Origin: Cognatundibacterium curvum
Lineage (GTDB): Bacteria > Pseudomonadota > Gammaproteobacteria > Burkholderiales > Burkholderiaceae_D
Assembly: GCF_014284235.1 (NCBI RefSeq)
Contig: NZ_JACOGD010000004.1
Location: 186,001-250,000, forward strand
Length of the DNA stretch: 64,000 nt
Reading direction: 5' to 3'
In this document: piece by piece, positions 45,638 through 62,983 of the stretch
Numbering within the stretch: the first letter of the stretch is position 1
Layout: each line of letters begins with the position of its first letter
Notes under the pieces: model-generated
What the model was told of the DNA's origin: nothing
The model's input: the letters and a program-made list of their open reading frames with translations, nothing else
Database searches by the model: none
Position numbers and translations under genes: made by a program

Positions 45638-45712
45638 CGCTGTCTCTGCCTCTGCCTTAATGTGCTTATCTGAATATTGGTATTGCTTTATCCGCTGCGC
45701 TGGGCTTTGGAT

Positions 45713-47227
45713 TTACTGAAATCCGCTCACAGGAATTTTTCCTTCCGCCCGCACTTCACCCGCCAGCCAGGCGCGTGCCGCGTCAACCGCCGGTGCGGCA
45801 AAGCCATAAGTCAGCAAAGCAGGTGCATCGATATCGAGCATCTGGAAAGGATTCCACAGCACCAGATGCAGGTCGGGTTTCCAGCTATCCCTGACTTGCT
45901 GGCTATAGCGTATGCGTACCGTTGAGGCCAGAATCACATAGCGCCCATCTTGCGGCAAATCATCCCAGCGGAAGCTATCGGCATTGTCAAAGGTCACCGT
46001 CTCAACGTCGTACAGACTGCTTAACATGGCCGTGACTTTTTCTGCCGGTATGCCCGCTTCCGACACACCGTCGCTGACCACATCGGCACTGATAACCAGA
46101 CGCAGCTTGCTGCCCTTGGCTGGTGCGACCGGATTGCCGCAAGCGGTAAGTCCGCGTTTCCAGGCAGACGACATCAAAATGCGGTCAGCCAGTTCAGTCT
46201 GATACGCGCTTTGCTGACAAGGATAAGCCGTGGTCAGCTGACGTACCCGCGCCAGCCTTTGTTCTATCTCTGCCGCTGTAATCTGACCGCTCGCAATGAC
46301 CTGCGTCAGTGCTTCCAGGGTTTCTAACTGAGTTTCTGTGGTGCCCAGTGCCATCACCAGATCCGCACCAGCCAGCAAGGCTTTGACTGCCGCCTTGCCG
46401 ACACCATAGCGTCCTGCAATCGCATGCATATCCATACCATCGGTGATCACTACGCCCTGGTAATTCCATTGCTTGCGCAGCAGCCCGGTCAAAATCGCTT
46501 CTGACATGGTGGCCGGATTGTCGGCGTCCAGCGCCGGATACACGATGTGTGCTGTCATCATGGCAGGTGCCTTGCGACTGACGGCGATTTGGAATGGCGC
46601 CAGCTCCAGTGCCTGCAATTCTTCCAGTGTTTTATCGACGGTAGGTAAGTCGCGATGCGAATCAACATTGGTGTCGCCATGTCCCGGGAAATGTTTGACG
46701 CAGCACGCCACACCTTCCGACAAACTGCCATCCATCCAGGCCAGTGCCAGCTCCGCCGCACGGCCTGGATCGGAGCCGAAAGAGCGCTCAGAAATGACGG
46801 GATTATCTACGTTATTGTTCAGATCCAGCACCGGTGCAAAATTCCAGTTAAAACCCAGTGCCTTGACGCCGCGAGCAACTGCAGCGCCTACCTGATAACA
46901 TAATTCCTTGTCACCACTCGCACCCAGCGACATCGCAGCAGGCGGTTGTGGCACCCAGGTCGAACGCACCACAGCACCACCTTCCTGATCTAATGCGATC
47001 AATGCTTCCGGCCCCATGACAGCACGCAGATCGGCCGTCATTTTTTTCAATTGCAGTTCATCGGTCATATTGCCACGGAACAGACAGATGGCACGGATAT
47101 GGTGCTGCTTCAGGAAAGCGGCGGCCGCCTCATCCAGCTGGGTGCCCGGCATGCGTATCATGACCAGCTGACCAGCCAGGCGACGTGCTTCTTCGATACT
47201 CATTACTAATGGGGTTTCTTGCGTCAT
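45713..47227 (-). CDS. nagZ: GH3 beta-N-acetylglucosaminidase (NagZ-like, with extra C-terminal domain)
   Basis: 504 residues from the ATG at 47227, which overlaps the permease stop (ATGA). Catalytic nucleophile D263 (ITDGMDM); the NagZ-type K-H-F-P-G-H-G-x(4)-D-S-H at 178-191 supplies the His/Asp general acid pair that separates N-acetylglucosaminidases from other GH3 enzymes. Classic NagZ is about 340 residues; here about 160 more form a second domain. No signal peptide, so it hydrolyses (or phosphorolyses) imported chito-oligosaccharides in the cytoplasm. The longer upstream frame overlaps the permease and is not used. Confidence 0.9.
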   Translation of the reverse strand: MTQETPLVMSIEEARRLAGQLVMIRMPGTQLDEAAAAFLKQHHIRAICLFRGNMTDELQLKKMTADLRAVMGPEALIALDQEGGAVVRSTWVPQPPAAMSLGASGDKELCYQVGAAVARGVKALGFNWNFAPVLDLNNNVDNPVISERSFGSDPGRAAELALAWMDGSLSEGVACCVKHFPGHGDTNVDSHRDLPTVDKTLEELQALELAPFQIAVSRKAPAMMTAHIVYPALDADNPATMSEAILTGLLRKQWNYQGVVITDGMDMHAIAGRYGVGKAAVKALLAGADLVMALGTTETQLETLEALTQVIASGQITAAEIEQRLARVRQLTTAYPCQQSAYQTELADRILMSSAWKRGLTACGNPVAPAKGSKLRLVISADVVSDGVSEAGIPAEKVTAMLSSLYDVETVTFDNADSFRWDDLPQDGRYVILASTVRIRYSQQVRDSWKPDLHLVLWNPFQMLDIDAPALLTYGFAAPAVDAARAWLAGEVRAEGKIPVSGFQ

Positions 47228-48078
47228 TTCACTGCTCCATCCATGCCGCGCATAAAAAAGCGCTGGGTAAATAAAAAGGCCACCAGTATCGGTGCGACCG
47301 TCAAAATGGTTCCTGCTGCTATCACCCTGGTGCTGCTGCCATACGTGCCGCGTAAATACAGCACGCCGGCCGACAAGGGGAAATCTTCTGGCTTGGCGAT
47401 CACGATGGATGGCCAGATATATTCGTTCCAGGCTTCGACCGCGGTCAATATGCCTACCGTCGCCAGCCAGGGCGCGATCAATGGCAACACAATGCGGAAA
47501 AATACGGTCCATTCGCTGGCGCCATCCACCCGCGCCGCATCGAGCAAATCCTGCGGCACTTCATCGAAGGCTTGCTTGAGTAACAGGATAGACACGGCGG
47601 TAACCAGATTCGGCAAGACCACAGCGGTATAGGTATCGACCAGCCCGAGCCGGGTCATGCTGATGAAGTTGACCAGAAAATTCACTTCAGAAGGCAGCAC
47701 CATGGTCAGCAACACCACACCGATAATCAGACGGCGGCCACGGAATTGCATGCGCGACAGCGGATACGCCGCCATAGAGCAAATAACTAATTTACCGGCC
47801 ACGGTAAGCAAGGTAATCAGGATGGAATTTTTGTAAAACGCCAGTATCGGTATAACCCGGAATACTTCGGCAAAGTTATCCAGTGCCACGCCTTGCGGCC
47901 AGAAAGCTGGCGGAAACGCGAAGGTATTGCCCTTGGTCGACAAGGCCACCACCAGCGTCCACCAAAACGGAAAAACGCATATCACTGCGATCAGTGTCAG
48001 TAGCAGATAATGCAGCAAGGGACTGAGCACGCGCTGCAACAAATGGAGTCGTGCGTTCGAAAAAAGTGCATGTTTCAT
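47224..48078 (-). CDS. sugar ABC permease (MalG type)
   Basis: 284 residues from ATG 48078, overlapping the preceding permease stop (ATGA). Six membrane spans and the EAA loop D-A-A-R-V-D-G-A-S-E-W-T-V-F-F-R-I-V-L-P. Second inner-membrane subunit of the carbohydrate transporter. Confidence 0.9.
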   Translation of the reverse strand: MKHALFSNARLHLLQRVLSPLLHYLLLTLIAVICVFPFWWTLVVALSTKGNTFAFPPAFWPQGVALDNFAEVFRVIPILAFYKNSILITLLTVAGKLVICSMAAYPLSRMQFRGRRLIIGVVLLTMVLPSEVNFLVNFISMTRLGLVDTYTAVVLPNLVTAVSILLLKQAFDEVPQDLLDAARVDGASEWTVFFRIVLPLIAPWLATVGILTAVEAWNEYIWPSIVIAKPEDFPLSAGVLYLRGTYGSSTRVIAAGTILTVAPILVAFLFTQRFFMRGMDGAVK

Positions 48079-48938
48079 GTGCGCTGCCTCGGTCTCAGGT
48101 ATTGCAAACACACAGCGGCAATCACGATGCAGCTGAGCGATACCACAAAACTGGCGGCCAGACCACGCGGCAGTTTCAAATGCTTGAGGCCCTGGTCATA
48201 CGCATAGTAAAGCGCGGTAAAGGTGGAGTTCATCGGGCCGCCCTGGGTCAGCACATCGACCTCCTGATAGGCCTTCAGTGCAGCCAGTACACACATGATG
48301 CTGCAGATCATGACGGTAGGCAGCAGCATAGGAAAAGTAATGTGCCAGAAACGCTGCCAGCGGTTCGCACCATCAAGCAAGGCAGCTTCCTCGACTTCTG
48401 CCGGCAGCGATTGCAGTGCGGCCAGATACATCACCATATACCAGCCCAGACCACGCCAGAACGATACAAACATCACGCACAGTAAAGCCAGCACATCGTC
48501 CGACAACCAGCCCAAAGGTGCGGCGATCAGATGCGCGCGCAGCAAGACATAGTTGAGTGCGCCCTGTTCATGAAACATAAAGCCCCACATGATGCCGACC
48601 ACTGACACGGTGGTCACCACCGGCACATAAAACGCGGCGCGGAACCAGCGTATCGCAGGTAAGCGATTATTCACCAGCACCGCCAACAGGATGGCAGCCA
48701 GCTGCGTGCAAGGCACGACCAGCAAAAACACAAAGGAATTGCGCAAGCCGGTCAGGAACATTTCATTATTGAATAGCGCGACATAATTATCCAAACCGAC
48801 CCAATGGGTTTCGCGCATCAGGCTGAAATCGGTGAAACTCAGATACGAGCCATACAGCACGGGCCAGAATGAAAAGGCCGCCAGTAACAGCAAAGCCGGT
48901 GTCACGAACAGCCAGGCAAGCAGACGTTGTGGATTCAT
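48075..48938 (-). CDS. sugar ABC permease (MalF/UgpA type)
   Basis: 287 residues, six membrane spans, EAA loop (E-E-A-A-L-L-D-G-A-N-R-W-Q-R-F-W-H-I-T-F-P). Starts within the stop of the binding-protein gene (ATGA overlap). Subunit of the carbohydrate importer. Confidence 0.9.
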   Translation of the reverse strand: MNPQRLLAWLFVTPALLLLAAFSFWPVLYGSYLSFTDFSLMRETHWVGLDNYVALFNNEMFLTGLRNSFVFLLVVPCTQLAAILLAVLVNNRLPAIRWFRAAFYVPVVTTVSVVGIMWGFMFHEQGALNYVLLRAHLIAAPLGWLSDDVLALLCVMFVSFWRGLGWYMVMYLAALQSLPAEVEEAALLDGANRWQRFWHITFPMLLPTVMICSIMCVLAALKAYQEVDVLTQGGPMNSTFTALYYAYDQGLKHLKLPRGLAASFVVSLSCIVIAAVCLQYLRPRQRT

Positions 48939-50272
48939 GAGTGCGCGCGCCTGTGTAACTTGCGATTCCAGATCAGCACCGCTTCATCCAGCGCTTCCTG
49001 AATATCACGTTTACCGGTCACTCCGGCCTCCACTGCTTTCACCAGAAAACGGCGTAACTCATCGTAGTCGTCGATACCAGCCACATACAGACTACGCGCA
49101 GAATTCATGGAGTTGGCCGCCACATTCAGCGCCTGCTCTGCCGCGCCGGTTTGCTCGGGCAGGATACGGAAATACGGGTGCGCCAGAGCCTGTTTGGTAG
49201 TCGGCATTACGCCCGCCATTTTGGCAAAGGCGAGCTGATTATTTTCGCCGGTCAGAAAACGTGCGAACTCTGCAATCGTCGGTAATTCGGATTTTTTGAC
49301 GCCTTTAGGTATCGCGAAATGGAACATCCAGCCACCATCATTGATGCCGGTTGGCCCGGCAGGCACAGGGAATATCCCGGTCTGCGCATAAATCTCAGGC
49401 GCATCGGTCTGTATGCGCCGGATCGCGGTTGGTGCACTCACCATCAACCCAAGCCGTCCGCCCAGATAGGCATCGACCACGGCTGGAAAATTATCTTCTG
49501 CAAACAATTTATCTTTGAGCAGGCCACCCGCTTTGTAAGTCGCAGCGAGCTTGCGTATCAGGCTCACATGCGCAGGCGAATTGAAGACCGCCTTGCCATC
49601 GCTGACCAGCGCTAAGCCCTGCTGCATCAGAAAGCCATCTATCTTTCCTAAGGCCGGTGCATAACCAGGCTTGCCGGTACGCGCAGAAATCATCACTGCC
49701 AAGGCCAGCAACTGATCCATATTTTCTGGCGCTTTGACATGTCCTGTTGCGGCCAGGATGCTGCGGTTATAGGCAATCACATTCACATTACTATAATGCG
49801 GGAAGCCATATACTTTTCCATTGAAACGTAAATCAGCCAGTGCAGCATCGGTATAATCGGGCGCCCTACCAGGCACCGCCAGCCACTGATCGACCGGCTC
49901 TAACAAGCCATCGCGCGCCATTTCTTCGGCCCAGGGCACACTCAGATTGACCAATGCAGGCGGTCTTCCGGCCGCAATCGCAGTGATCAGTTTCAGCTGC
50001 AATATGTCCCAGGGAAAGTCCACCCATTCGATTTTGACGCCGGGATGCTTAGCTTCGTACTGGCGTACCAACTCCTGAAAATAAGGAATGAATTTTGGCT
50101 TGAGGCTCATGGTCCAGAATTCAATTTTCTGGGCAGCCAAAACAGGGCCAGGCAATGCCAGCATCAAGCCAGCCAGCATGAGCACTGAGAACATACCAGC
50201 CGGGAGCCGGGACCGACAGCCTATGCGACAGGCATGCTGCCACCAGCTATTTAAAAATCGCATATATTTCAT
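48935..50272 (-). CDS. sugar ABC transporter substrate-binding protein
   Basis: 445 residues from ATG 50272; an ATG three codons later is equally possible since AGGA is closer to ideal for it. A hydrophobic segment ending ALPGPVLAA-QK is the signal peptide. The mature part (KIEFWTMSLKPKFIPYFQ, then Y-E-A-K-H-P-G-V-K-I-E-W-V-D-F-P-W) is a family-1 solute-binding protein for sugars. Periplasmic receptor for GlcNAc or chitobiose, inferred from the neighbours. A 146-bp gap separates it from the deaminase gene. Confidence 0.88.
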   Translation of the reverse strand: MKYMRFLNSWWQHACRIGCRSRLPAGMFSVLMLAGLMLALPGPVLAAQKIEFWTMSLKPKFIPYFQELVRQYEAKHPGVKIEWVDFPWDILQLKLITAIAAGRPPALVNLSVPWAEEMARDGLLEPVDQWLAVPGRAPDYTDAALADLRFNGKVYGFPHYSNVNVIAYNRSILAATGHVKAPENMDQLLALAVMISARTGKPGYAPALGKIDGFLMQQGLALVSDGKAVFNSPAHVSLIRKLAATYKAGGLLKDKLFAEDNFPAVVDAYLGGRLGLMVSAPTAIRRIQTDAPEIYAQTGIFPVPAGPTGINDGGWMFHFAIPKGVKKSELPTIAEFARFLTGENNQLAFAKMAGVMPTTKQALAHPYFRILPEQTGAAEQALNVAANSMNSARSLYVAGIDDYDELRRFLVKAVEAGVTGKRDIQEALDEAVLIWNRKLHRRAHS

Positions 50273-50418
50273 TTTCCTGTCACGACTTTCTAAATCCCGG
50301 ACGGCGTTGAAGATGTCTCTGTTTTTTTCTGGAACAGCGCAATTCTCGCTGCGCTCAGGCACAGTAGTCCTGAACGCAGTAAAGCACGAAGCACATTCAA
50401 GTATGGCGGTGCTGTTGT

Positions 50419-51441
50419 TTAGTTCGTCTTAGTGACTTTGCTTAAATGGCGTGGCTGATCTGGATTGAGTCCACGTGCTACCGACAAATGCGCAGCCATG
50501 ACGTAGAAAGCCTGAATCGCAACGATAGGGTCCAGATCCGGCGTAGCCGCAGTCGGCAGTGTCAGATTACGTTCTGCCACATTGTCAGGTGCTGCCAGTA
50601 AGACATTGGCACCGCGTCCGCGCATTTCTTCCGCCAGACGGATCAGGCCTTCCTGCGCCGCACCACGGGTTGCGAAAATCAGCAAAGGATAGCCATCGTG
50701 TATCAAGGCCATAGGACCATGTTTGATTTCTGCACCGCTGAAGGCTTCGGCCTGTATCACTGAGGTTTCTTTGAACTTCAAGGCAGATTCCAGCGCTACC
50801 GGAAAGCTGATACCACGTCCCACCACCATGATGCGCTGAGCCGGTGTCAGTACATCCAGTGCAGCCGACCAGTCGAGCTGGGTCGCAGCATGCAAGGCTT
50901 CCGGCAAGGCATCGATCGCGCTCAGGAAGTCTGCATCATTCTGCCAGTGGCCCGCCAGTCGGGCACCAGCGACCAGGGAAGTGATAAAACTCTTAGTCGC
51001 TGCCACACTGAGTTCCGGACCTGCATGCAAAGGCATAGTCCATTCAGCCGCCTGCGCCAATGGCGATGCAGCATCATTGACCAGCGCTACCGTAGTGGCA
51101 CCACCCTGGCGGAAATACGAAATCGGCTCCACCACATCCGGGCTTTGGCCAGACTGAGAAATCGCAATTGCGAGCGTGTCTTTGGTATGCAGCGGTGCTT
51201 TATTCAGCGTCACCAGCGACATAGGCAATGAGGTCACCAGACGGCCCAGACGCGCCATGATCAGGTAAGCCGCATAGTTGGCGGCATGATCGGAACTGCC
51301 GCGCGCCACCGTCAGCACGGAGGCTGGTGGATGCGCGCGCAGATGCGCGCCCAGATCGGCATAAGCCTGGCGTTCCTGAGTGAGTTGGTAAGCTACGCGT
51401 TCGGATGAAGCACAGGCTTCTTTAAGCATCTGAGAGGTCAA
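50419..51441 (-). CDS. SIS-domain glucosamine-6-phosphate deaminase (NagB-II type)
   Basis: 340 residues. Two SIS domains related to the isomerase half of GlmS (V-A-R-G-S-S-D-H-A-A-N-Y-A and G-R-G-I-S-F-P-V-A-L-E-S-A-L-K-F-K-E-T). Without the glutaminase domain such proteins deaminate GlcN-6-P to fructose-6-P and replace NagB. Start is probably TTG at 51441, six bases after GGAG; the ATG at 51429 is 18 bases away. It overlaps nagA by 20 bp. Confidence 0.88.
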   Translation of the reverse strand: MTSQMLKEACASSERVAYQLTQERQAYADLGAHLRAHPPASVLTVARGSSDHAANYAAYLIMARLGRLVTSLPMSLVTLNKAPLHTKDTLAIAISQSGQSPDVVEPISYFRQGGATTVALVNDAASPLAQAAEWTMPLHAGPELSVAATKSFITSLVAGARLAGHWQNDADFLSAIDALPEALHAATQLDWSAALDVLTPAQRIMVVGRGISFPVALESALKFKETSVIQAEAFSGAEIKHGPMALIHDGYPLLIFATRGAAQEGLIRLAEEMRGRGANVLLAAPDNVAERNLTLPTAATPDLDPIVAIQAFYVMAAHLSVARGLNPDQPRHLSKVTKTN

Positions 51442-52537
51442 TCTTTTCTCCTTCTACATACACGGCAATAAGGTTGAGGCTGGCATCCAGCACAACCAGG
51501 TCGGCGAACGCCCCCGCACGCAGGCGGCCACGTTCAGATAAACCGAGGTAATCAGCGGCGTAAGTAGAAACCCGTTTGGAAGCATCTTCCAGTGTGAGTC
51601 CGATACTGACCAGATTGCGTAGAGCCTGATCCATCGTCAGGGTGCTGCCAGCCAGCGTGCCATCTTCCAGACGCACACCACCCAGACATTTATGCACCAC
51701 CTGACGACCCAGCATGTATTGCCCGTCCGGCATACCGGATGCTGCGGTTGAATCGGTCACACAATACAAATGCGGAATTGCCCGCAGCGCTGCCTTGATC
51801 GCTCCCGGATGTACATGGAGCAGATCAGGAATAATTTCTGAAAATTCAGCATGGGCGAGCGCAGCGCCAACCATGCCGGGAGCGCGATGATCGAGTCGCG
51901 ACATCGCGTTATACAAATGGGTAAAGCCTTTGGCACCGTTTTCCAATGCAGCCACACCATCTTCATAGCTACCCAGGGTGTGACCAATTTGTACCTGCAT
52001 ACCCATTGCGGTCAGTTCGCGCACCAGTTGCAGATGTCCATCCATTTCGGGCGCGACCGTGATCAAACGTATCGGCGCGATCGCATGCAAATGCTGGACT
52101 TGTTGTAAGGAGCCGATACCAGCGAAATCCGGTTGCGCACCCAGCTTACCCGGATTGATATACGGGCCTTCCAGATGCACACCCAACACCCGCGCTGAGT
52201 TGGCAGGACGCGTATCCACCAGTGGACGAATCGCGTGTAAGGCCGCTTCAATATCCGCCTGCGGCGCGGTCATGGTGGTCGCCAGCAAACTGGTCGTGCC
52301 ATGCTTGGCATGCTGACGCGCAATCACGGAAACCGCGTCTCCGGCTTCCATCGTGTCTTTGCCACCGGCACCATGCACATGCAGATCCACAAAACCAGGC
52401 AGGATATAAGGCTGCTCAGCATCTGCCGTATTTTCACCAGCGTGTATCGCGGCGATTTTTTCGCTAAATTCTATGCGCCCCTGCACCCAGCCTTCCGGCG
52501 TCAGGATTTTCCCTTGTAAGCCTTGATGCAAACTCAT
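51422..52537 (-). CDS. nagA: N-acetylglucosamine-6-phosphate deacetylase
   Basis: 371 residues. Metal and catalytic residues of the amidohydrolase fold: H53/H55 (HVHG), E123 (HLEGPY), H186 (GHT), H207 (HLYNAM) and catalytic D262 (TDS). Converts GlcNAc-6-P to GlcN-6-P. ATGA overlap with the regulator gene. Follows kinase and regulator, precedes deaminase: the order of the pathway. Confidence 0.96.
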   Translation of the reverse strand: MSLHQGLQGKILTPEGWVQGRIEFSEKIAAIHAGENTADAEQPYILPGFVDLHVHGAGGKDTMEAGDAVSVIARQHAKHGTTSLLATTMTAPQADIEAALHAIRPLVDTRPANSARVLGVHLEGPYINPGKLGAQPDFAGIGSLQQVQHLHAIAPIRLITVAPEMDGHLQLVRELTAMGMQVQIGHTLGSYEDGVAALENGAKGFTHLYNAMSRLDHRAPGMVGAALAHAEFSEIIPDLLHVHPGAIKAALRAIPHLYCVTDSTAASGMPDGQYMLGRQVVHKCLGGVRLEDGTLAGSTLTMDQALRNLVSIGLTLEDASKRVSTYAADYLGLSERGRLRAGAFADLVVLDASLNLIAVYVEGEKIDLSDA

Positions 52538-53268
52538 CTGAACAACTCCGCAACGAAGTCATAGTAATCGCTGCGGCAGTATGAATGCGATAATTCTATT
52601 GCCGTACCATTGGGCAGATAAGCAACACGGGTGATAAATAACATCGCCGCGCCTTGCTTGATATCTGCCAGCCTTGCCTGCTCTGCTGTCGCATTCACCG
52701 CACGGATATGCTGCAGCGCGCGCGTCGGTGCCACATTATGCGATTCCAGATAGCCGTACAAACTGTCGGTCACCAGTTTAGGATTAGGCATGTACATGGC
52801 GGGTATGGTCGTACTCTCTATCGCCATCACTACATTGTCCGCAGTACGCAAACGTTTAAGGCGCGACACCACTGTATTCGGTGATAAACCTAAAGATAAA
52901 ATCTCTTCCGGCGAGGCGACCCCGGTATCACGAGAAATCCAGCGAGAACCAGGCACAAAACCACGCTGACGCAATTCTTCACTGAAGTTAGTCAGACGCG
53001 ATAAAGGCTGCTCCAGCTTAGGCGTGATATAGGTGCCGGAACCATGTTTGCGCGTCAGCAAACCACGTTCACACAGCATGTCTATGGCTTTACGAGCCGT
53101 TACCCGGGAAATTTCCAGTGTTTCGGAAAGCATGCGCTCAGAGGGCAAGGCTTCATCCGGCTGCCATAAACCACTATGTATGCCATTGGCCAGTTTATTG
53201 GCCAGTTGCAGATAAAGCGGTGTGGAACTCTCGCTATCTGGTTTGAAATCAATTATGTGTGACGACAT
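52534..53268 (-). CDS. GntR-family regulator (HutC/UTRA type, NagQ/NagR-like)
   Basis: 244 residues. N-terminal winged helix: L-P-S-E-R-M-L-S-E-T-L-E-I-S-R-V-T-A-R-K-A-I-D-M-L, then a UTRA ligand-binding domain (P-I/Y-x-Y-L-E-S...RIT-R-V-A-Y-L). Embedded in the GlcNAc operon, so it is the likely reader of the TGGTATT operators at 54386, 58207 and 62139, with an amino-sugar phosphate as effector (inferred). Confidence 0.9.
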   Translation of the reverse strand: MSSHIIDFKPDSESSTPLYLQLANKLANGIHSGLWQPDEALPSERMLSETLEISRVTARKAIDMLCERGLLTRKHGSGTYITPKLEQPLSRLTNFSEELRQRGFVPGSRWISRDTGVASPEEILSLGLSPNTVVSRLKRLRTADNVVMAIESTTIPAMYMPNPKLVTDSLYGYLESHNVAPTRALQHIRAVNATAEQARLADIKQGAAMLFITRVAYLPNGTAIELSHSYCRSDYYDFVAELFR

Positions 53269-53307: not shown

Positions 53308-54279
53308 TTATGCGTTCTTGTGCATGGTGTGCATGGTGTGCTGGAGGTGACGCTTAATCAGCAGCATCGCGCCATGCGCAGACCCACCCACCGGTGCCTG
53401 TATTCTTTGCTGTAAAGGCTGAGGAATATATGGCAGTATCATTTCCGCCAAACCTCCGCTCAATGCGACCGGCAAACTCTGTTGCGGGTCGAGTGCCAAG
53501 GCCATTTGTTGCACATCACGCCCAGCCTGCAACATCATTTCTCTGGCCACCTGACTGCCCGCCGCATGCCGTATCACGACCGGAGCCAGCGTGGCATAAC
53601 GGGTTTGATTGGCGGCTGCAAGCCAGTTGAACATCGCAGCCTGATCAGTGCCCAGATGCTCAAATAACTCTGCCGAAAAAGCATCTGCAGGCAAACGTCC
53701 ATCCATCACGCGCTGAGCGTAATTAACGGCCTGAAAGCCCAGCCAGGCGCCACTGGCTTCATCGCCCACTGGAAAGCCCCAGCCGCCAACTTCGCGCCGC
53801 TTACCATCTTGCGTTAACATCTCGCCCACACTGCCAGTCCCAAGTGCAATCACGACACCGGCTGCACCAGCATGCGCACCCAGCAGGGTGGTATAGGCAT
53901 CAGTCTCAACCACGATGCGGCCAAAGCCTGGATTCAGTGCGATAAATTCGTTTGCCCAGTGCACATTGTTGACACCCGCCAAACCACAGCCTATCGCGAC
54001 CTCACTCAATGCCACATTCGCCACGCCCGCAGCGCTGAATGCTGACTGCAGAGCCAGCTGAATCTGCTGCCATGCCTTATCACGACCATGCGCCAGACCA
54101 GACGGCCCTGCCGCACCACGCGCAATCTCTTCGCCATCGGCATCACATAACACGACTCTCGTGCCCGTTCCACCTCCATCGACACCAACGATATAGCGAT
54201 AGGCCTGAGCAGACTCAGCGACGTCTGCAGCCTTAGATAAGGAAACTGAATTTCCTGATTTTAATTCTTCTGAATTCAT
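53308..54279 (-). CDS. BadF/BadG/BcrA-type N-acetylglucosamine kinase
   Basis: 323 residues. ASKHA fold: phosphate loop V-G-V-D-G-G-G-T-G-T-R at 31-41, second G-T-G-S-V-G motif, and A-L-S-G-G-L near the end. Related to eukaryotic NAGK and bacterial glucosamine/GlcNAc kinases; phosphorylates imported GlcNAc. First gene of the leftward operon, with the three-box operator 107 bp upstream. The 3' end contains a short 9-bp duplication (CATGGTGTG) giving H-T-M-H-T-M. Confidence 0.88.
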   Translation of the reverse strand: MNSEELKSGNSVSLSKAADVAESAQAYRYIVGVDGGGTGTRVVLCDADGEEIARGAAGPSGLAHGRDKAWQQIQLALQSAFSAAGVANVALSEVAIGCGLAGVNNVHWANEFIALNPGFGRIVVETDAYTTLLGAHAGAAGVVIALGTGSVGEMLTQDGKRREVGGWGFPVGDEASGAWLGFQAVNYAQRVMDGRLPADAFSAELFEHLGTDQAAMFNWLAAANQTRYATLAPVVIRHAAGSQVAREMMLQAGRDVQQMALALDPQQSLPVALSGGLAEMILPYIPQPLQQRIQAPVGGSAHGAMLLIKRHLQHTMHTMHKNA

Positions 54280-54721
54280 GTGGGCACGTTGGACTTGCAG
54301 CTTAATTCAGACTCAGACGCGAGCCTGAATCAACTCAAATAGTTTCTGTTAAAATCATAAGCTTCACTGTAAAAGTAATAGCTAGTGGTTGTCAATAGGT
54401 ATTTAAGTGGTATTTAACAATGTGCAGCAATTTAAGCTACCTTAGCCGCCACACACTTACATACCTCTGCATACAACATGCCGCGCTAAGACTTACCCAG
54501 CCTCAAGCTATACCACGGAACGACCACACCACTTCCTGATTCAGCGCTACCTTTACTGTCTGAATCTGCCCACTGGCATCAGACCTGTTTTCAAAGCCCA
54601 GACCCGCATACCAGACAGATATATCAGCCTGGCACACAAGTACCTGAGCGCCCGACTGAGCGCAGACATCTGCGATGCCTGCGACTTCCCTGAATGCTTT
54701 TACTTCAGCCTTACTTCGGCC
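54280..54721. other. regulatory region upstream of the GlcNAc operon
   Basis: 442 bp. The first half holds the operon promoter and operator (54366-54414). The rest up to the exbD stop shows no gene; near 54696-54728 an 11-bp unit (CCTTACTTCGG-like) occurs three times and runs into the end of exbD. Confidence 0.5.
54366..54414 (-). promoter_or_regulatory. promoter and three-box operator of the GlcNAc operon
   Basis: Plus-strand boxes TGGTTGT (54386-54392), AGGTATT (54397-54403), TGGTATT (54408-54414), each 11 bp apart. Leftward TTGACA (54390-54395) overlaps the first box; 18 bp on is TACAGT (54366-54371). Confidence 0.7.
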
Positions 54722-55156
54722 TTACTTCATAAACTGCTCATTGCCAACCATACCGATCTTGGTCACGCCCAGGCGCTGGGCTGAGGCCATCACCGCTGCT
54801 ACCGATTTGTACGGTACCACGGCGTTTGGACGCAGATGCACTTCCGGCTGATCCGGCTGGCTTGCCACTTCGGTCAGCTTGGCTTCGAGTTCGTTACGGT
54901 TAGCGACTGCCACACCATTCCACAACACGGTGCCGTCAAAGTCGACGTCGATGTTGACCACCACTGGTTCCACCGGATTCTTCGGCGCGGCCTGGTTGGT
55001 TGGCATGTTCAGATTCACGGAGTGATTCTGAATCGGGATGGTGATGATGAGCATGATGATCAGTACCAGCATCACGTCGATCAGCGGGGTCATGTTCATT
55101 TCGATCATGACTTCCGGATCAGCCGATGAGCTGCCTGAACCTACTTGCATTCCCAT
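54722..55156 (-). CDS. exbD: ExbD-family protein (second of tandem pair)
   Basis: 144 residues with one membrane segment carrying the essential Asp in M-T-P-L-I-D-V-M-L-V-L (about 20-40) and a periplasmic domain. Tandem exbD genes are typical of TonB systems in Xanthomonas and other carbohydrate scavengers. 13 bp after its twin; last gene of the tonB operon. Confidence 0.92.
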   Translation of the reverse strand: MGMQVGSGSSSADPEVMIEMNMTPLIDVMLVLIIMLIITIPIQNHSVNLNMPTNQAAPKNPVEPVVVNIDVDFDGTVLWNGVAVANRNELEAKLTEVASQPDQPEVHLRPNAVVPYKSVAAVMASAQRLGVTKIGMVGNEQFMK

Positions 55157-55169
55157 GTCAGATCCTTTC

Positions 55170-55607
55170 TTAGTTACGTGGTGGGGGTTCGATCACGAAG
55201 CCCACTTTGGCGATCCCGGCGCGCTGGGCGGTCAGGATGGTTTTACCGACAAATTCGTAGCGGACGTTCTGGTCGCCACGGATGTGCACTTCCGGTTGCG
55301 GTACTTTGACGGCTTCCACTTTGAGACGGTCGAACAGGTCTTCGGTGCCGCCTGGCAGGGGTTTCATCATGCCGTTCCAGTACACGTCGCCGTCTTTGTT
55401 GATCGAGACGGTGATGTTTTCCGGTTTGGTTTTGTAGATCTGGTTACGTTCTGCCGGGAGCTTGAGTTTGACCGTGTCTGTGATTACCGGGGCGGTAATC
55501 AGGAAGATGATCAGTAACACCAGCATGACGTCAACCAGCGGTGTGGTGTTGATGGTGCTGTTGACTTCGTCTTCGCCGTCACCATCGTTGCCGATTGCCA
55601 TTGCCAT
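55170..55607 (-). CDS. exbD: ExbD-family protein (first of tandem pair)
   Basis: 145 residues; membrane segment with N-T-T-P-L-V-D-V-M-L-V-L. Similar to the following gene but clearly diverged, so an old duplication. Separated from exbB by 444 bp occupied by two inverted-repeat elements. Confidence 0.92.
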   Translation of the reverse strand: MAMAIGNDGDGEDEVNSTINTTPLVDVMLVLLIIFLITAPVITDTVKLKLPAERNQIYKTKPENITVSINKDGDVYWNGMMKPLPGGTEDLFDRLKVEAVKVPQPEVHIRGDQNVRYEFVGKTILTAQRAGIAKVGFVIEPPPRN

Positions 55608-55690: not shown

Positions 55691-55800
55691 TTAAACACAG
55701 AGACACAGAGGCACAGAGAAGGGCGAAGAGCGTAAAGCAGATCAGACTACTTTTCTTCGCTTTGCTTTTCCTCTGTGTCTCCGTGCCTCTGTGTTAAACA
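55691..55800. repeat. long inverted-repeat element, copy A
   Basis: Left arm TTAAACACAGAGACACAGAG and right arm ending CTCTGTGTTAA enclose a CTTCGCTTTGC-like stretch with the core ATCAGACTACTT. Same family as copies B and C. Confidence 0.85.
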
Positions 55801-55837
55801 GGTTTTAACGCTTTTAGGTTTTAAACCTTTAAACCTT

Positions 55838-55975
55838 TAAACACAGAGACACAGAGACACGGAGAAAGGCTTAAGAGAGATACTGAATGATCAGACGACT
55901 GCTCTTCGCTTTGCTTTGCTTTTCTCTGCTTTTCTCTGCTTTTCCTCTGTGTCTCTGTGCCTCTGTGTTAAACAG
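55838..55975. repeat. long inverted-repeat element, copy B
   Basis: Same orientation as copy A, about 35 bp away across an AAACCTTTAAA run, with an expanded CTCTGCTTTT run in the right arm. Confidence 0.85.
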
Positions 55976-56051: not shown

Positions 56052-56921
56052 TTATGCTTTTTTCGCGACTTTGTTCATGTTGCCGGACAGGACAACAGAG
56101 TGCAGGTCAGCGGCGAACGCGCGGACTTCTTCCATCGCGCTCTTGTTGCGGCGGACCAGGAAGTTGTAGCCCAGAACCGCTGGAACCGCGACTGCCAGAC
56201 CGATCGCGGTCATGATCAGCGCTTCACCCACAGGACCCGCTACTTTGTCGATCGATGCCTGACCGGACATACCGATGGCTGTCAGCGCGTGGTAAATACC
56301 CCATACAGTACCGAACAGACCAACGAATGGTGCAGTAGAACCGACTGTCGCCAGGAAGGCCAGGCCGTCTTGCAGGCGGCTTTGTACTTTGTCGACTGCG
56401 CGCTGGATGGACATGGAAACCCAGGTGTTCAGGTCGATTTGTTCCAGCAGGGCGCCTTCATGGTGCTCTGTGGCTTTGATGCCGGAGTCAGCGATGAAGC
56501 GGAATGGGCTGCCTTCTTTGAGGGAAGCCGCACCTGCTTGCACAGAAGCGGATTTCCAGAATTTAGCGCGGGCGTCTGTCGCCTGGCCAGACAGTTTGAT
56601 CTGGTCGACGATTTTAGTGATCAGGATGTACCAGGAACCCATGGACATGATGACCATGATGATCAGTGTGCCTTTGGCGACGAAGTCACCGGTTTTCCAG
56701 AGTGCGTCCAGGCCGTATGGGTTTTCGATGACCTCTTTGGCTGGGCCGGCTTCAGCAGCAGGGGCTGCAGCAGGCGCAGCAGCATCAGCGGCTGGTGCGG
56801 AAGTGGCTGGTGCTGCGGAGGCTGCAGTGGCAGAAGCTTCTTCTGCGAAGACTGGAGCGGCAACAGCTGCGGTCAGGGCCAGAACGGCGGCAGCCAGGAA
56901 TGCGGAGAAACGGGTTTTCAT
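56052..56921 (-). CDS. exbB: ExbB proton-channel protein
   Basis: 289 residues. Signal peptide about 1-26, Ala/Pro-rich linker about 28-62, three membrane segments and the family motif F-V-G-L-F-G-T-V-W-G-I-Y-H-A-L. With the ExbD proteins it turns the proton gradient into TonB movement. 193 bp after tonB. Confidence 0.94.
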   Translation of the reverse strand: MKTRFSAFLAAAVLALTAAVAAPVFAEEASATAASAAPATSAPAADAAAPAAAPAAEAGPAKEVIENPYGLDALWKTGDFVAKGTLIIMVIMSMGSWYILITKIVDQIKLSGQATDARAKFWKSASVQAGAASLKEGSPFRFIADSGIKATEHHEGALLEQIDLNTWVSMSIQRAVDKVQSRLQDGLAFLATVGSTAPFVGLFGTVWGIYHALTAIGMSGQASIDKVAGPVGEALIMTAIGLAVAVPAVLGYNFLVRRNKSAMEEVRAFAADLHSVVLSGNMNKVAKKA

Positions 56922-57114: not shown

Positions 57115-57786
57115 TTAATCCAGCTTCCAGACGTACTGGACTTTGGCCCAGCTTTGTTGTGGCTTGCCATCCACTGTGCCTGGTTTGTTTTTGCAGGCAC
57201 CTGACAACAACTGGGAACGGACCGCATTGTCCAGACCGCGGAAGCCACTGGACTTCTCGATCTTGACGTCGGCGACGGTACCGTCTGCGCCGATCAGTAC
57301 GGCTAAGGTGGTGATACCGGTTTCTTCATTACGCAGCGAAGCGCGTGGGTATTCCGGTTTGCAACCGCCCACATTGAAGTCGATCACAGGTGCCACGCTG
57401 ACCGGGCCGGTGGACGTGGTTGCAGCCGCTGGCGGCGCTGGTGGCGCTGTCTTGGTGAAAGTTGGGTTTTCCGGCTTCTGGCTGGTCGTAGCAGAAATAG
57501 TGTTCTGTGGCTGTACCTGTGGCTGTACCTGCACTTCCGGCGGCGGAATGAATGGTGGCGGTGGAGCCAGCAGTTTCGGCGGCGGCGGTGGTGGCGTGTC
57601 TGGTGGTGGCGGAGGCGGTTTGACCTCTTCCACGATTTTTGTTTCTAGGGGCTTTTGAACGATTTCAACGAGCTTGGTGCCCAGGCCATTGGCCAGTGCG
57701 TACACCAATACCGCGTGAAATGCCACTACCAGCCCTATGCCCAGGAACTTCTTACCCGGCTCTTGCTGGCGATCTGAAAAATCCAT
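57115..57786 (-). CDS. tonB: TonB energy-transducing protein
   Basis: 223 residues from the ATG behind AGGAGAGG (the frame's earlier TTG lacks such a site). One membrane segment (about 14-33, with the conserved His: VAFHAVLVYAL), a proline-rich periplasmic spacer (about 57-95), and the C-terminal TonB domain with Y-P-x-x-(A)-x-x-x-x-x-x-G. It links the inner-membrane ExbB/ExbD motor to outer-membrane receptors such as the one at 59141. First gene of its operon. Confidence 0.94.
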   Translation of the reverse strand: MDFSDRQQEPGKKFLGIGLVVAFHAVLVYALANGLGTKLVEIVQKPLETKIVEEVKPPPPPPDTPPPPPPKLLAPPPPFIPPPEVQVQPQVQPQNTISATTSQKPENPTFTKTAPPAPPAAATTSTGPVSVAPVIDFNVGGCKPEYPRASLRNEETGITTLAVLIGADGTVADVKIEKSSGFRGLDNAVRSQLLSGACKNKPGTVDGKPQQSWAKVQYVWKLD

Positions 57787-57930
57787 ACCTCTCCTCTTAG
57801 ACAAAATAACTGATCGATACCCGTGCCTTTGAACTCCAGCACTTAGCCATCGAAAATTTGGGATGCTTCACATCTTGAAACCTTAAAACCTTTACACCTT
57901 AAAACCTTTACACCTTTACACCTTAAAACC

Positions 57931-58071
57931 TTTAAACACAGAGGCACAGAGACACAGAGGAAAAGCAGAGAAAAGCAAAGAAAAGCGAAGCGAGGAGAAG
58001 TAGTCTGATTCAGTCACACTCGTCGCCTTTCTCTTAAGCCTTTCTCCGTGTCTCTGTGCCTCTGTGTTAAA
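57931..58071. repeat. long inverted-repeat element, copy C (inverted)
   Basis: Same family as A and B but in opposite orientation: its left arm (TTTAAACACAGAGGCACAGA...) is the complement of the right arm of copy B, and its core AGTAGTCTGATT is the complement of the core of A. Confidence 0.85.
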
Positions 58072-58187: not shown

Positions 58188-58235
58188 ACTGTAGTTTTGC
58201 TGAAACTGGATGTCAAGCGGTATCTATGTGGTATT
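58188..58235 (-). promoter_or_regulatory. promoter and three-box operator of the tonB operon
   Basis: Boxes TGGATGT (58207-58213), CGGTATC (58218-58224), TGGTATT (58229-58235) at an 11-bp step. Leftward TTGACA (58211-58216), 17 bp, TACAGT (58188-58193). Confidence 0.7.
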
Positions 58236-58331: not shown

Positions 58332-59045
58332 ATGTCCATAAAATCCCGCTTCACACTCCGCCAACCGGTCGATATTCAATGCGTAGACATCGCAGGTCAT
58401 CAGGCTCTGATCATCGATGATTTTCTGGAACAACCTGAAGTCTTACTGCAAATCGCAGCACAAAGCCAATTTGAAATCTACCCTGGCGTCGCTCAACAAA
58501 AAGGCTATCCCGGCATACGCGCACAGGCACCGGAAGACTACTCGCAAGTACTGACCGAATTTCTCGAGCCTGTGATGAGGCAGTTTTTTGCCATCCCGGA
58601 AGAGCTCGGCCTACGTAAAAGCATCTGCGCATTTTCACTCACGACGACACCCGCCGCGGAACTGGGACCATTGCAGCGCACTCCACACTTTGATGCGAGC
58701 ACCCCGCATCACATGGCAGTGCTGCTGTATCTGTGCGACGAAAAACATGGTGGTACCGGCTTTTACCGGCACAATACAACCGGGCTACAGCAAATCAATG
58801 CTGACAACCGCGAACATTATCTCGATGTGTATTACGAGGAAATCAATGCAAGACGTCCGGCCCAGCGTTATTTTGATGACTCCAGTGCAGAATTCACTTT
58901 CCTCGGCATGATTCCTGCCAAATTCAACCGCCTGGTAATCTACCATGGCAGCCTGCTGCACTCGGCCTGCATTAATCCCGCGATCAGCTTAAGCAGCAAT
59001 CCTTTGCAAGGCAGGTTAACTTTAAACAGTTTCTTTGATTTCTGA
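58332..59045 (+). CDS. DUF6445-like protein (2OG-Fe(II) oxygenase-like)
   Basis: 237 residues. H-F-D in R-T-P-H-F-D-A-S (about 120) and a later histidine in Y-H-G-S-L-L-H-S, followed by G-R-L-T-L-N, resemble the H-x-D...H metal site and Arg of 2-oxoglutarate/Fe(II) oxygenases. From memory, relatives sit next to TonB receptors, often with SapC or tryptophan-halogenase-like genes; their function is unknown. The gene converges with the receptor and diverges from tonB across the shared operator. Confidence 0.72.
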   Translation: MSIKSRFTLRQPVDIQCVDIAGHQALIIDDFLEQPEVLLQIAAQSQFEIYPGVAQQKGYPGIRAQAPEDYSQVLTEFLEPVMRQFFAIPEELGLRKSICAFSLTTTPAAELGPLQRTPHFDASTPHHMAVLLYLCDEKHGGTGFYRHNTTGLQQINADNREHYLDVYYEEINARRPAQRYFDDSSAEFTFLGMIPAKFNRLVIYHGSLLHSACINPAISLSSNPLQGRLTLNSFFDF

Positions 59046-59140: not shown

Positions 59141-61780
59141 TCAGAACTTCGCGCTGACGCTGACACGATAGGTAGTCTCCCCCATGAAGGACCAGGCTGG
59201 GTAGCCGGCTTTCAAAGGATCTTTCACCGTTGTGTTCACACCTGCGGCACCGTACTGCACATCATCAGCTTTCAACAGATTCGTGGCTTCAAATGCGATA
59301 CGTACTTTGTCAGTGATGTTCCAGCCCAGGCTCAGATCCAGCGTGCCGTAAGCATCGTGCATACGGTTGCCGTACCAGCCAGTTTCACGAACCATGTACT
59401 TAGAACGCCAGTTATACGCCAGACGTGCTGAGTACGTTGGATTTTCCCAGTAACCAACCAGATTCACATTGTGCTTGGAAGACAAAGTGAACACATTCAG
59501 CTGATCCTGATAGCTGGTAGCCGGTGCAGTTGCATTAGCCAGTGTGTAGTTAGCGACTGCGCCGAAGCCATTATCAAACGAATGGTTGATCTGTGCTTCG
59601 ATACCATCAATCTTACCGCCGCCAGCATTGACGTACTGGTTCACAGTCCAGCTGTCTTTACCGCTGTCAGGGCTGACCACACCGATGCTTTGATTGATCT
59701 TAGTGTTGGTGGTGATGAAGTTATTGATATCTTTGTGGAAGTACATCAAAGAGATCAGGTTACCTTTACCGTAGTAATACTCAACACCCAAATCCAGCTG
59801 TGTGGATTTCATCGGCTTCAGGCCTACGCTACCGTAAGTCACTGTTTCATTACCTGCCACGCCATCCTGGAAACCAGTCTGGGTTGCGATAAACATGTTA
59901 TCGAAATTAGGACGGGTGATTGCTTGCGAAGCAGTAAAACGCAGGATAGTGTTTTTATTGAGATCAAAAGCAGCATTCAGACTAGGCAAAATATCGTTGT
60001 AATCTGCAGACTGGCTGATGATGGATTTGCCCCAGCCAGCATTCTGTGCGATATCGCCAGCTGCCACTGCAGTACCATCCAGCTTATAGCCTTCAGCAGT
60101 TGCCTTAGTGCGTACATAACGCGCGCCGAAGTTACCATGCCATTGGTCTTTTTCGAAATTGAACATACCGTAAGCTGCAGTGTTGTCTTCTTTCAGTACA
60201 CCGTAACCACCACGTTCACGTACCCAGCCAGTGATGTTCTGGGTTGTGTTTGCCATCATCGCGCTGATGTTAGGACGTGGAGATGACCAGCCATTCGTGC
60301 CCATCGCGATCGTGCCATCGTACAAACCAGCTGTTGGCACTTCTATCGCTTTCGCTGCGAACTGAGCACGGTCTGTGCCTTTTTCAAAGGTATGCTGAGA
60401 AGCGCGGAAACCGGTCTTGAACGAGGAAATCGCCCCCATATCCAGATTCAGCAACAAATCTGCCTGAGCAAAGTTTTCTTTGTCGGAGTTGGGTCCGCGT
60501 GAAGTCGCCCATGAACCTGCAGGACCTGCGCTGGCTGGCAGATTGCCCAGACCAACAGACTGGTTCGATCCCGGTGTAAGGATAATTTGCTTACCGGTCG
60601 CATCCACACCACCTGTCCATTTCGGCAGATTGGCACCGGCAGTCCAGGAACCATAAGAATAGTTAGTCGTCATCGACGTACCACCATCCGCTTTAGTCGT
60701 ACCTGCTACTGCATCGATTTTATAGCCTTCGCCCTTGAACGTACCGTTCAGTGTCAGGCTGTCAGAACTCATTTTCGCAGTACGTGCCCAGGTTTGCAGG
60801 AAAGCGTCAGTTGCTTTGGCCGCACTGGTGTTACTGCTTAAGCAAACGCCTTTAGGATTGAAATCCGAGGTCACAGCAGCATTGCGGCTGGTGCAGTTAG
60901 GATCATGGAAAATGTAATGGCTGGTATTCGAGTTATCTGCATCCAGTTGCAATTTCAGATAATTCAAACCGATATCGAGACCCTTGACCGGACGTGCCTG
61001 TACGCTCAGATTCAGCGCGGTGCGCTTACGCTCCTGAACAAAAGTAGTCGGTGCCACGTCGGCAGACCAGCGCGAATCCGATTCGATACCACGGCGAATA
61101 TAGTCGCCGTTTTCACCAGCAGCAGCAACCAGGATACCAAAAGAGTTAGCGTCATTTTTCCAGCTGAACAGACCCGACAGATCTTTGCTCAGACCATCAC
61201 TGACTGTACCTTTGCCCAATTTGGCGCCGACAAAAGCAGAACCTGCAGCCATATCGAGGGGCTTGCGTGTTTTGACGATGACGGTACCACCGATACCGCC
61301 TTCAGTCAGATCAGCCTGGGAGGATTTGTACACATCCATGCCGCCTATCAGTTCGGATGGCAGCAAAGAGTAGTTGAAAGAGCGGTCTATGGTTTGCTGA
61401 TCATACCAGCCAGTAGAAGCAACTGTCTGACCATTCAGTGTGGTGTAAGTCATTTGTGGATCAGAGCCACGCACCGAAACAGAGGCACCCTGACCAAATG
61501 CGCGACCAACCGACACGCCCGGAATACGACCCAGCGATTCACCGACGTCAGTGTCCGGCAATTTACCTACATCTTCTGCAGAAACGGCATCAACCACAGA
61601 ATTGGCGTTGCGTTTAATATTTGTCGCACTTTGCAAAGCTGAGCGTATACCAGTCACCACAACTTCTTGCGCCTTGGACTGATCGGCCTGTTGCGCCTGC
61701 GCGGACATGGAAGCACTGAGTACCATCAGTGCAACTGCTGACGCGATTGGCGTCAAACCAGGTGTTGAATTACGTTTCAT
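59141..61780 (-). CDS. TonB-dependent receptor, probably for chito-oligosaccharides
   Basis: 879 residues. Signal peptide 1-29, TonB-box region followed by E-V-V-V-T-G-I-R-S-A-L-Q-S-A, plug domain (D-V-G-K-L-P-D-T-D-V-G-E-S-L-G-R-I-P-G-V), and a barrel ending in a terminal Phe (VSVSAKF). This is the carbohydrate-type TonB receptor class common in Caulobacter and Xanthomonas. Substrate is inferred from its operator, which it shares with the GlcNAc operon. Confidence 0.92.
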   Translation of the reverse strand: MKRNSTPGLTPIASAVALMVLSASMSAQAQQADQSKAQEVVVTGIRSALQSATNIKRNANSVVDAVSAEDVGKLPDTDVGESLGRIPGVSVGRAFGQGASVSVRGSDPQMTYTTLNGQTVASTGWYDQQTIDRSFNYSLLPSELIGGMDVYKSSQADLTEGGIGGTVIVKTRKPLDMAAGSAFVGAKLGKGTVSDGLSKDLSGLFSWKNDANSFGILVAAAGENGDYIRRGIESDSRWSADVAPTTFVQERKRTALNLSVQARPVKGLDIGLNYLKLQLDADNSNTSHYIFHDPNCTSRNAAVTSDFNPKGVCLSSNTSAAKATDAFLQTWARTAKMSSDSLTLNGTFKGEGYKIDAVAGTTKADGGTSMTTNYSYGSWTAGANLPKWTGGVDATGKQIILTPGSNQSVGLGNLPASAGPAGSWATSRGPNSDKENFAQADLLLNLDMGAISSFKTGFRASQHTFEKGTDRAQFAAKAIEVPTAGLYDGTIAMGTNGWSSPRPNISAMMANTTQNITGWVRERGGYGVLKEDNTAAYGMFNFEKDQWHGNFGARYVRTKATAEGYKLDGTAVAAGDIAQNAGWGKSIISQSADYNDILPSLNAAFDLNKNTILRFTASQAITRPNFDNMFIATQTGFQDGVAGNETVTYGSVGLKPMKSTQLDLGVEYYYGKGNLISLMYFHKDINNFITTNTKINQSIGVVSPDSGKDSWTVNQYVNAGGGKIDGIEAQINHSFDNGFGAVANYTLANATAPATSYQDQLNVFTLSSKHNVNLVGYWENPTYSARLAYNWRSKYMVRETGWYGNRMHDAYGTLDLSLGWNITDKVRIAFEATNLLKADDVQYGAAGVNTTVKDPLKAGYPAWSFMGETTYRVSVSAKF

Positions 61781-62983
61781 TTACTCCCCCAAGATTTTCT
61801 AAATAGATTTCCAGCTCGCAGTCTTTGTGTCCGCAAACCGTTTTTTCACCTACCATAAAACACAGCCAAACAAACGAGGAAAATCCACTTCAATGCCACT
61901 CAAATCAGAAGTGGGCTGATATTGAGACCCAGCAGCCTACAAAATTAACTGGATATCAATACAGAATTCGCCTGATCAGACTGAAAGCCGCTGCACACGT
62001 TTTTCAGACTCTGGCCTGAAGTCGCCATCACAATAACGCTGGAGACTCCGGTCTGATATCAGCATGAAATTCAAGGTATTAGCCCTCTTATAATTTCACA
62101 TCAAGCTCAAACGGGTCTCACTTTAAGTAGCACAAAAGTGGTTGTCAAGCGGTATCTACGTGGTATTACCTATCATCTTATTGGTATTAATTATATGCGT
62201 GAAATAAATAAGCTAAGTTGATATTTTAAAAGAGTATTTTTAAATAAAAATTTTTTCCTAAGCAAAAGTGGTCTGTTTATTTTTCCCAACATCACTCTAA
62301 GTCACAGATCACAATTTACGGCATGAGGCCTGCTAAGGAAAAAAAAGTGAGGCGATCCAGGCGCCATCATTTTTCACCTGAGATCAGCCTGCACTCCCAA
62401 TCCGTGACAAGCAGAAAAGTGCCTCAGTCACTGGCAACACTGAAATAAAACCAGCCCCTGTGTAAAACTCAACATTTCAGCAATCCATCATTAACAGTAT
62501 TTTTTTGATATTAAAAATGAAAAGATAGCGCCATGCCAAATTTAAAGTGGTATTACAGTCATCCTTAGCCAAAATTATTTGGTTCCGCACCTGCATGGCG
62601 GCCCGACAACCCAAGCTGGAAACCGCAGCAAGGATGTTTTACTCTGTTGCAAATTCGCTCAAAAGTATATTTTTTTTAAATAAATGTCTGAAAATACGAA
62701 AAGACATGATAAAAATTGGTATATCAACAATCAAAATTGATGAATGTATCAGACATCCGCACTATCACCTCAGCGAATCAAGCCTGCGATACAGCGAATG
62801 ATTGATGGACAGTGCCATTCACCGGCTTGCCCGCATGTGCATCTAGGTTCAACTTCTGACTCATCGGGGAAGTCGGTATCAGCTCCTGCATGCACCGGAA
62901 ATTCACTGCTCCACAAGCTTCGTTTTTATTATCAACAGCACTGAACATGCGGGTATTTTTCCTATTTCTTTTGTATCAGCTTT
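61781..62983. other. long AT-rich intergenic region
   Basis: About 1.2 kb. The receptor promoter and operator lie at 62120-62188, leaving a leader of about 330 nt. From 62190 to 62983 no gene is convincing; one isolated TGGTATT (62548-62554) is present. Confidence 0.6.
62120..62188 (-). promoter_or_regulatory. promoter and operator of the TonB receptor
   Basis: Boxes TGGTTGT (62139-62145), CGGTATC (62150-62156), TGGTATT (62161-62167) at an 11-bp step, and a further TGGTATT at 62182-62188. Leftward TTGACA (62143-62148), 17 bp, TAAAGT (62120-62125). Confidence 0.72.

Follow-up and report, generated by a model that had tools for sequence, protein, structure and literature searches.

In Xanthomonas, the NagQ box consists of two TGGTATT repeats with a spacing of 4 bp. 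PhoB boxes are likewise 7-bp direct repeats with 4-bp spacers and lie beside the core promoter. PhoB, however, belongs to a protein family unrelated to NagQ, is an activator and replaces, rather than overlaps, a consensus -35. In excerpts of two papers, NagQ sites are called direct repeats of TGGTATT (PMC4494728) and tandem repeats (PMC5343134), and both cite Yang 2006 for these sites. In E. coli, three NanR dimers bind cooperatively to (GGTATA)3, as stated in an excerpt of PMC8012715. For the effector site of NagR, an excerpt of PMC4333415 names 15 residues, including two phosphate arginines. Among titles and abstract beginnings of the openly licensed literature, we recognised no three-box NagQ sites fused to a -35 and no phased receptor boxes, which is a weak indication.

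The window, a stretch of 64,000 nucleotides from Cognatundibacterium curvum, carries three promoters in which AATACCA-type boxes recur every 11 bp on the minus strand and lead into a perfect TTGACA. In this study, we propose with a probability of about 0.8 that these sites are operators of the repressor NagQ, whose dimers would exclude RNA polymerase until a sugar phosphate loosens NagQ. We infer binding, cooperativity, repression, inducer and operon structure alike.

A sequence-only reading of the window had described one and the same three-box design at 54386-54414, 58207-58235 and 62139-62167, and all three triplets were found there. Read 5' to 3' on the minus strand, the sites are AATACCA-ctta-AATACCT-attg-ACAACCA ahead of nagK (54414-54386), AATACCA-cata-GATACCG-cttg-ACATCCA ahead of tonB (58235-58207) and AATACCA-cgta-GATACCG-cttg-ACAACCA ahead of a receptor gene (62167-62139). 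In the nagK promoter, box 1 (AATACCA, kept in the genus) occupies 54408-54414, box 2 (AATACCT, conserved) 54397-54403 and box 3 (ACAACCA, then CT) 54386-54392, the latter overlapping the -35 TTGACA at 54390-54395. The tonB promoter has its boxes at 58229-58235 (AATACCA), 58218-58224 (GATACCG) and 58207-58213 (ACATCCA, then GT, overlapping the -35) with TTGACA at 58211-58216, and the same layout is found in the tonB promoters at loci L040, L130, L133 and L137. In the receptor promoter, the boxes lie at 62161-62167 (AATACCA), 62150-62156 (GATACCG) and 62139-62145 (ACAACCA, then CT, overlapping the -35), and TTGACA lies at 62143-62148. A further box, absent from the sequence-only reading, is located 21 bp upstream of the receptor triplet (62182-62188, minus strand AATACCA, plus strand TGGTATT). 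The -10 hexamers were named correctly as TACAGT or TAAAGT. They are predicted, with a function suggested by sequence, at 54366-54371 (TACAGT, nagK), 58188-58193 (TACAGT, tonB) and 62120-62125 (TAAAGT, receptor), and their distances from TTGACA, counted by hand on the sequence, are 18, 17 and 17 bp. The notion that the third box contains the -35 holds in part: box 3 overlaps TTGACA without containing all of it, the hexamer being composed of the last three bases of the spacer ahead of box 3 and the first three bases of box 3. Compared to TGGTATT, box 2 differs by 1, 2 and 2 bases and box 3 by 2, 3 and 2 of 7 bases (nagK, tonB and receptor, respectively). Box 3 would not convince on its own match.

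The three sites precede nagK-nagQ-nagA-nagB, tonB-exbB-exbD-exbD and a TonB-dependent receptor gene, all on the minus strand. The first cluster encodes an N-acetylglucosamine kinase-like protein of the BadF family (nagK, 53308-54279, NCBIfam NagK match below cut-off), a GntR/HutC regulator with UTRA domain identified by family search and homologues (nagQ, 52534-53268, the proposed binding protein), a GlcNAc-6-phosphate deacetylase (nagA, 51422-52537, TIGR00221 above cut-off) and a GlcN-6-phosphate deaminase of the nagB-II type (50419-51441, NCBIfam match below cut-off). The ORFs of nagQ and nagA overlap, as do those of nagA and nagB, and the order nagK-nagQ-nagA is the same in relatives. Control of nagA and nagB by the site is suggested by position only. 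ORFs at 44486-50362, which follow nagB in the same direction, resemble parts of an ABC sugar transporter and a GH3 (NagZ-like) protein by their translations and may belong to the same operon as nagB. In the second cluster, tonB (57115-57804, family search) is followed by a gene for an exbB-like proton channel (56052-56921, Pfam above cut-off, TolQ/ExbB NCBIfam models below theirs) and by two exbD-like ORFs (55170-55607 and 54722-55156), which are named by context and translation. The receptor (59141-61780) was assigned to TIGR01782 by family search. A DUF6445 gene (58332-59045, plus strand) diverges from tonB and has the intergenic region with the tonB operator in common with it; DUF6445 genes also lie close to receptor sites at L050, L053 and L135. 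Moreover, a dispersed, partly palindromic repeat with AGAGGCACAGAGACACAGAGG is present in the tonB leader (57940-58063) and between exbB and exbD (55770-55964). Across the genome it has 5 exact copies and 2 near ones, versus 2 for the reversed control.

The two-box pattern at up to 3 mismatches matched the window 15 times versus 4.3 expected, a number reached in none of 100 shuffles. A genome-wide motif search, which the sequence-only reading had suggested, was done with GGTATYTANGTGGTATT on the 4.25-Mb genome and gave three matches at 0 mismatches. These are the present sites, which all belong to one cluster, that of the window. There was no match at 1 or 2 mismatches in the whole 4.25-Mb genome. 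At 3 mismatches, 53 matches were obtained compared to 58 in all for the reversed control, and this search was rejected as a source of further sites, the matches being background.

Within the genus, the element of two boxes plus TTGACA was found at up to 3 mismatches in 42 of 43 genomes, with 97 matches, at least three of which look like chance, versus 2 for the reversed control. Across the family, it occurs at up to 2 mismatches in 93 of 215 genomes and the reversed control in none of the 215. NagQ homologues (E ≤1e-50) are encoded in 92 of the 215. The element is present in all 92 family genomes with a NagQ homologue versus 1 of 123 without (G054, with a 2-mismatch site), the compared sequences being kin and the counts hence not independent. 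Due to this co-occurrence, the GntR/HutC protein NagQ is very likely the regulator of these boxes. The sequence-only reading had pointed to the same protein (52534-53268), and homology, co-occurrence and the published TGGTATT motif argue in its favour. Some bacteria control their GlcNAc genes through NagC, NagR or NagI, and a different regulator, such as a LacI or ROK protein, might occupy the boxes with NagQ as a bystander. Such an arrangement is very improbable in view of the co-occurrence, of the published NagQ motif, which is the same heptamer, and of the position of nagQ behind nagK within the cluster.

Two genomes stand against the NagQ repressor reading. G020 has NagQ and is the sole genus genome without an element match, and in G004 the core persists despite a broken nagQ. 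At the G004 locus (L146), nagQ is reduced to fragments between nagK and nagA, with residues 154-185 and 213-243 recognisable, while the nagK promoter retains boxes 1 and 2 plus TTGACA without CCACT. The genus search at up to 3 mismatches found no other site in this genome besides the nagK promoter. This single case is a possible natural loss of the regulator.

When 80 loci were searched for only the two-box core, at up to 1 mismatch, a perfect TTGACA stood at a fixed register in 73 of 75 unique sites. One of the other two has a single change in TTGACA and one is a four-box site in its other register. As the core-only search returns TTGACA in 73 of 75, the fixed distance between boxes and hexamer is not an artefact of the search. 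Boxes 1 and 2 plus TTGACA at fixed distance are, as judged from the sequences compared, the family-wide constant.

NagQ matches PF00392 and PF07702, both above cut-off, as expected for a GntR/HutC protein with UTRA domain. It is 98 and 99% identical to the NagQ proteins of U. rugosum and U. crateris, which assigns the window to Undibacterium or a close neighbour of it, and homologous to B. subtilis NagR (YvoA), whose structure is solved (E 1e-42). Ten of the 15 NagR effector-site residues are identical in NagQ (Phe89, Arg133, Arg135, Glu145, Ser165, Tyr167, Ile209, Arg211, Glu222 and Ser226), both phosphate arginines among them. The replacements from NagR to NagQ are Ser88Asn, Thr90Ser, Ile166Leu and Ala224Ser, and Tyr228 of the effector pocket is Cys, a point against the NagQ repressor reading. 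Since NagQ keeps most of these residues, its inducer is likely a sugar phosphate. The GntR domain starts at residue 18, with about 17 residues ahead of it. The N-terminal DFKPD is partly conserved (0.66-0.93 of 101 sequences).

The third box was followed through the relatives by its CCACT. At up to 1 mismatch, this comes after TTGACA, at column 27, in 75 of the 97 unique sites from the Undibacterium/Collimonas group, and none of the other columns between 24 and 43 has it in more than 8 of the 97. This set comprises Undibacterium, Solimicrobium, Sapientia, Glaciimonas, Collimonas, some MAGs and other genus genomes. In the group of Duganella, Rugamonas, Massilia and Janthinobacterium, boxes 1 and 2 plus TTGACA are retained and CCACT is found in 1 of 25 sites; both counts leave out rows with more than 2 core mismatches or no TTGA and take identical sequences once. 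In a set of 88 sites, from which only identical spacers had been removed, CCACT carries 0.82-1.34 bits per column, columns 32-33 carry 0.60 and 0.86 and columns 34-42 carry 0.05-0.38. Thinner sets of 44 and 14 sites had been picked by spacer difference, which lowered spacer conservation by design, and the 88-site set was used instead.

Counts by target cover sites with at least 70 bp upstream, identical sequences being counted once. A direct third box was found in 40 of 42 nagK promoters, where CCACT is conserved, in 3 of 3 tonB promoters, a class too small for column statistics, and in 20 of 38 receptor promoters. The 18 receptor promoters without it include 8 with an inverted TGGTATT and 10 with neither. 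Eleven sites without a recognised window homologue downstream, one of which is the tonB site of the window species itself, truncated by a contig end, divide into 8 with a direct third box and 3 without. Likely chance sites were kept, L126 in the 88-site and by-target sets and L157 in the by-target set.

According to one alternative, the operator consists of boxes 1 and 2 only, and "box 3" is the -35 hexamer with adjacent promoter bases. The poor fit to TGGTATT of box 3, three bases of which are dictated by TTGACA, is in line with this, as are the Duganella/Massilia group, the 10 receptor promoters with neither form of third box and the wording of an excerpt of PMC4494728, which calls NagQ sites simply direct repeats. 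CCACT, however, lies outside TTGACA, exactly at the next 11-bp register and rarely elsewhere, and identical letters are spelled 22 bp away by box 1 and its spacer. The by-target counts, too, and the inverted TGGTATT that 8 of 38 receptor promoters place there instead weigh against this alternative, and we consider it unlikely. The sequence-only reading took the box at the -35 to extend a two-box NagQ site. The clade-specific occurrence of CCACT (75/97 vs 1/25) supports this: by these comparisons, one part of the family has box 3 as an addition, which is kept most strictly ahead of nagK. The element can evidently work without box 3, because it is missing in 24 of 25 Duganella/Massilia-group sites and 18 of 38 receptor promoters.

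The nagK promoters of the Duganella/Rugamonas/Massilia type (L075-L110) have a conserved GCTGGTT or GGTGGTT just after TTGACA, perhaps a shifted inverted box, and 23 of the 25 unique Duganella-group sites carry GGT at column 30. The idea that the inverted CTGGTTT of this group corresponds to the inverted TTGGTATT seen at some Undibacterium receptors was rejected, since CTGGTTT is off by one base (column 30 versus 29) and missing from many other family sites.

Upstream boxes depend on the target. A further AATACCA (up to 1 mismatch) lies 20-22 bp upstream in 30 of 38 receptor, 1 of 42 nagK and 0 of 3 tonB promoters (Fisher p 1.4e-13 for receptor versus nagK promoters, not corrected for relatedness). 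Another box at 42-45 bp is found in 13 of 38 receptor promoters, all 13 without a direct third box. These distances correspond to about two and four helical turns. At L065, the nagK promoter carries an inserted fourth unit, and its four boxes follow one another at exactly 11 bp. A class-wide protein search of 369 genomes gave only 4 distant NagQ homologues besides the window, and for this reason we combined 12 loci from outside the family that encode NagQ homologues. They contain 33 pairs of AATACCA-like heptamers 7-50 bp apart, of which 8 are spaced by 11 bp, 3 by 22 and 2 by 33, with at most 2 at each other distance. The shuffled control, a weak one which keeps base composition only, gave about 0.05 per distance. 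Boxes are located at 0, 11, 33 and 44 in L174, four stand at 11-bp steps in L162 and two in L176; those of L162 and L174 are oriented the opposite way relative to the nag genes. Stray matches of the two-box pattern (up to 2 mismatches) away from nag genes were excluded in 20 loci.

It is conceivable, as a tentative idea which we rate below even odds, that the 11-bp NagQ boxes, by how many there are and how they are phased and oriented, act as a promoter-specific dial that gives each promoter its own induction threshold. In the nagK and tonB promoters, the operator would be compact, with three boxes fused to the -35. Receptor promoters would gain boxes two and four turns upstream, the four-turn box as if compensating for the missing direct third box (13 of 13). 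If true, NagQ assemblies differing in length and reach would order import and catabolism via one regulator.

Concerning the mode of action, boxes that lead into a consensus -35 are most simply read as serving repression, in which the -35 is covered. In the absence of inducer, NagQ dimers would sit side by side on the 11-bp-spaced AATACCA/TGGTATT boxes, almost on the same side of the helix, and exclude RNA polymerase. Upon entry of GlcNAc, NagK would phosphorylate it, and GlcNAc-6-P (or GlcN-6-P) would bind the UTRA domain and loosen NagQ. The promoters would then fire jointly and supply the outer-membrane receptor, the TonB-ExbB-ExbD energiser, the kinase, the deacetylase and the deaminase. 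Given its position behind nagK, nagQ would be autoregulated. Against repression it may be held that boxes 1 and 2 lie upstream of the -35, a position that activators also use. PhoB-like, NagQ could instead bind boxes 1 and 2 beside the -35 and recruit RNA polymerase. Box 2 ends one base ahead of TTGACA at a constant distance (73 of 75), as for a fixed polymerase contact, and receptor promoters have extra boxes further upstream. The -35 of the present sites, however, is already consensus, whereas PhoB promoters lack a consensus -35. Moreover, the characterised relatives NagR and NanR are repressors and a box 3 within the core promoter would collide with polymerase. Activation by NagQ is in our view distinctly improbable.

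The targets of the sites in relatives agree with a chitin/GlcNAc regulon. As judged by blastx with the window proteins, genus sites lie ahead of nagK-nagQ-nagA, of receptors and of tonB, many of the receptors being only about 30% identical to that of the window. At L040, L130, L133 and L137, tonB lies behind the site, together with exbB at L040 and L133. Behind a site at L068, a Collimonas GH18 protein with CBM5/12 is encoded, and the gene behind a site at L135 is of the tryptophan-halogenase family. Thirteen more regions were taken whose sites lie in other genera or are of questionable strength, and genes from 8 of them were scanned, L183, L184, L187, L189 and L191 being the others. The scanned gene was the longest ORF starting within 1200 bp, and some may not be the true target. 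GH18 proteins were found behind the sites at L179, L180 and L182, a GH3 beta-N-acetylhexosaminidase at L185 and a DUF5009/HGSNAT protein at L186. Three of the eight are not evidently chitin-related: an alginate-lyase family gene (L181), a nitroreductase family gene whose ORF starts 825 bp from the site (L188) and one without match (L190). The sequence-only reading had tied import, TonB power and catabolism into one regulon, and the comparison across relatives supports this. Import, the power for it and GlcNAc breakdown are thus probably switched jointly by a single sugar-sensing repressor.

Among known systems, the best precedent from experiment for dimers that bind three repeats cooperatively is, by analogy, E. 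coli NanR. It is likewise a GntR-family repressor of an amino-sugar pathway with three direct repeats of a similar hexamer and three operons, as excerpted from PMC8012715. There are also differences. NanR belongs to the FadR subfamily, whereas NagQ has a UTRA domain; its operator is downstream of the polymerase site, whereas the present boxes run into the -35; and its cooperativity needs a 32-residue N-terminal extension, whereas the GntR domain of NagQ begins at residue 18. Compared to a plain NanR-type operator, the third repeat is degenerate here. With B. subtilis NagR (YvoA) and Streptomyces DasR, NagQ shares a homologous protein, the pathway and largely the same effector-site residues. 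Their dre sites, in contrast, are described in the excerpt of PMC4333415 as (imperfect) palindromes bound by a dimer, whereas the two-box core is a direct repeat. A palindromic dre-type operator is not seen in this core, and an inverted third box occurs only in the 8 of 38 receptor promoters of relatives.

Closest are the NagQ regulons of Proteobacteria, for which excerpts of PMC5343134 and PMC4494728 report a GntR/HutC regulator and TGGTATT direct repeats as found here, control of nagA/nagB, which position suggests here as well, and chitin-use genes in expanded regulons. In Xanthomonas, according to the excerpt of PMC5343134, kinase and TonB-dependent receptors are under a LacI-type NagR rather than NagQ. 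Unlike in known NagQ regulons, one clade here has a third box that overlaps the -35, phased upstream boxes are common in receptor promoters and the tonB-exbB-exbD cluster bears an operator. This would place a TonB-ExbB-ExbD cluster within a GlcNAc/chitin regulon of Oxalobacteraceae. The promoters form a natural series with two, three and four direct boxes, with upstream boxes at two and four turns and with a third box that is direct, inverted or absent, which lets one ask how tandem-repeat GntR operators set cooperativity and induction threshold. The type of switch is already known, and the layout of the array is a variant of it.
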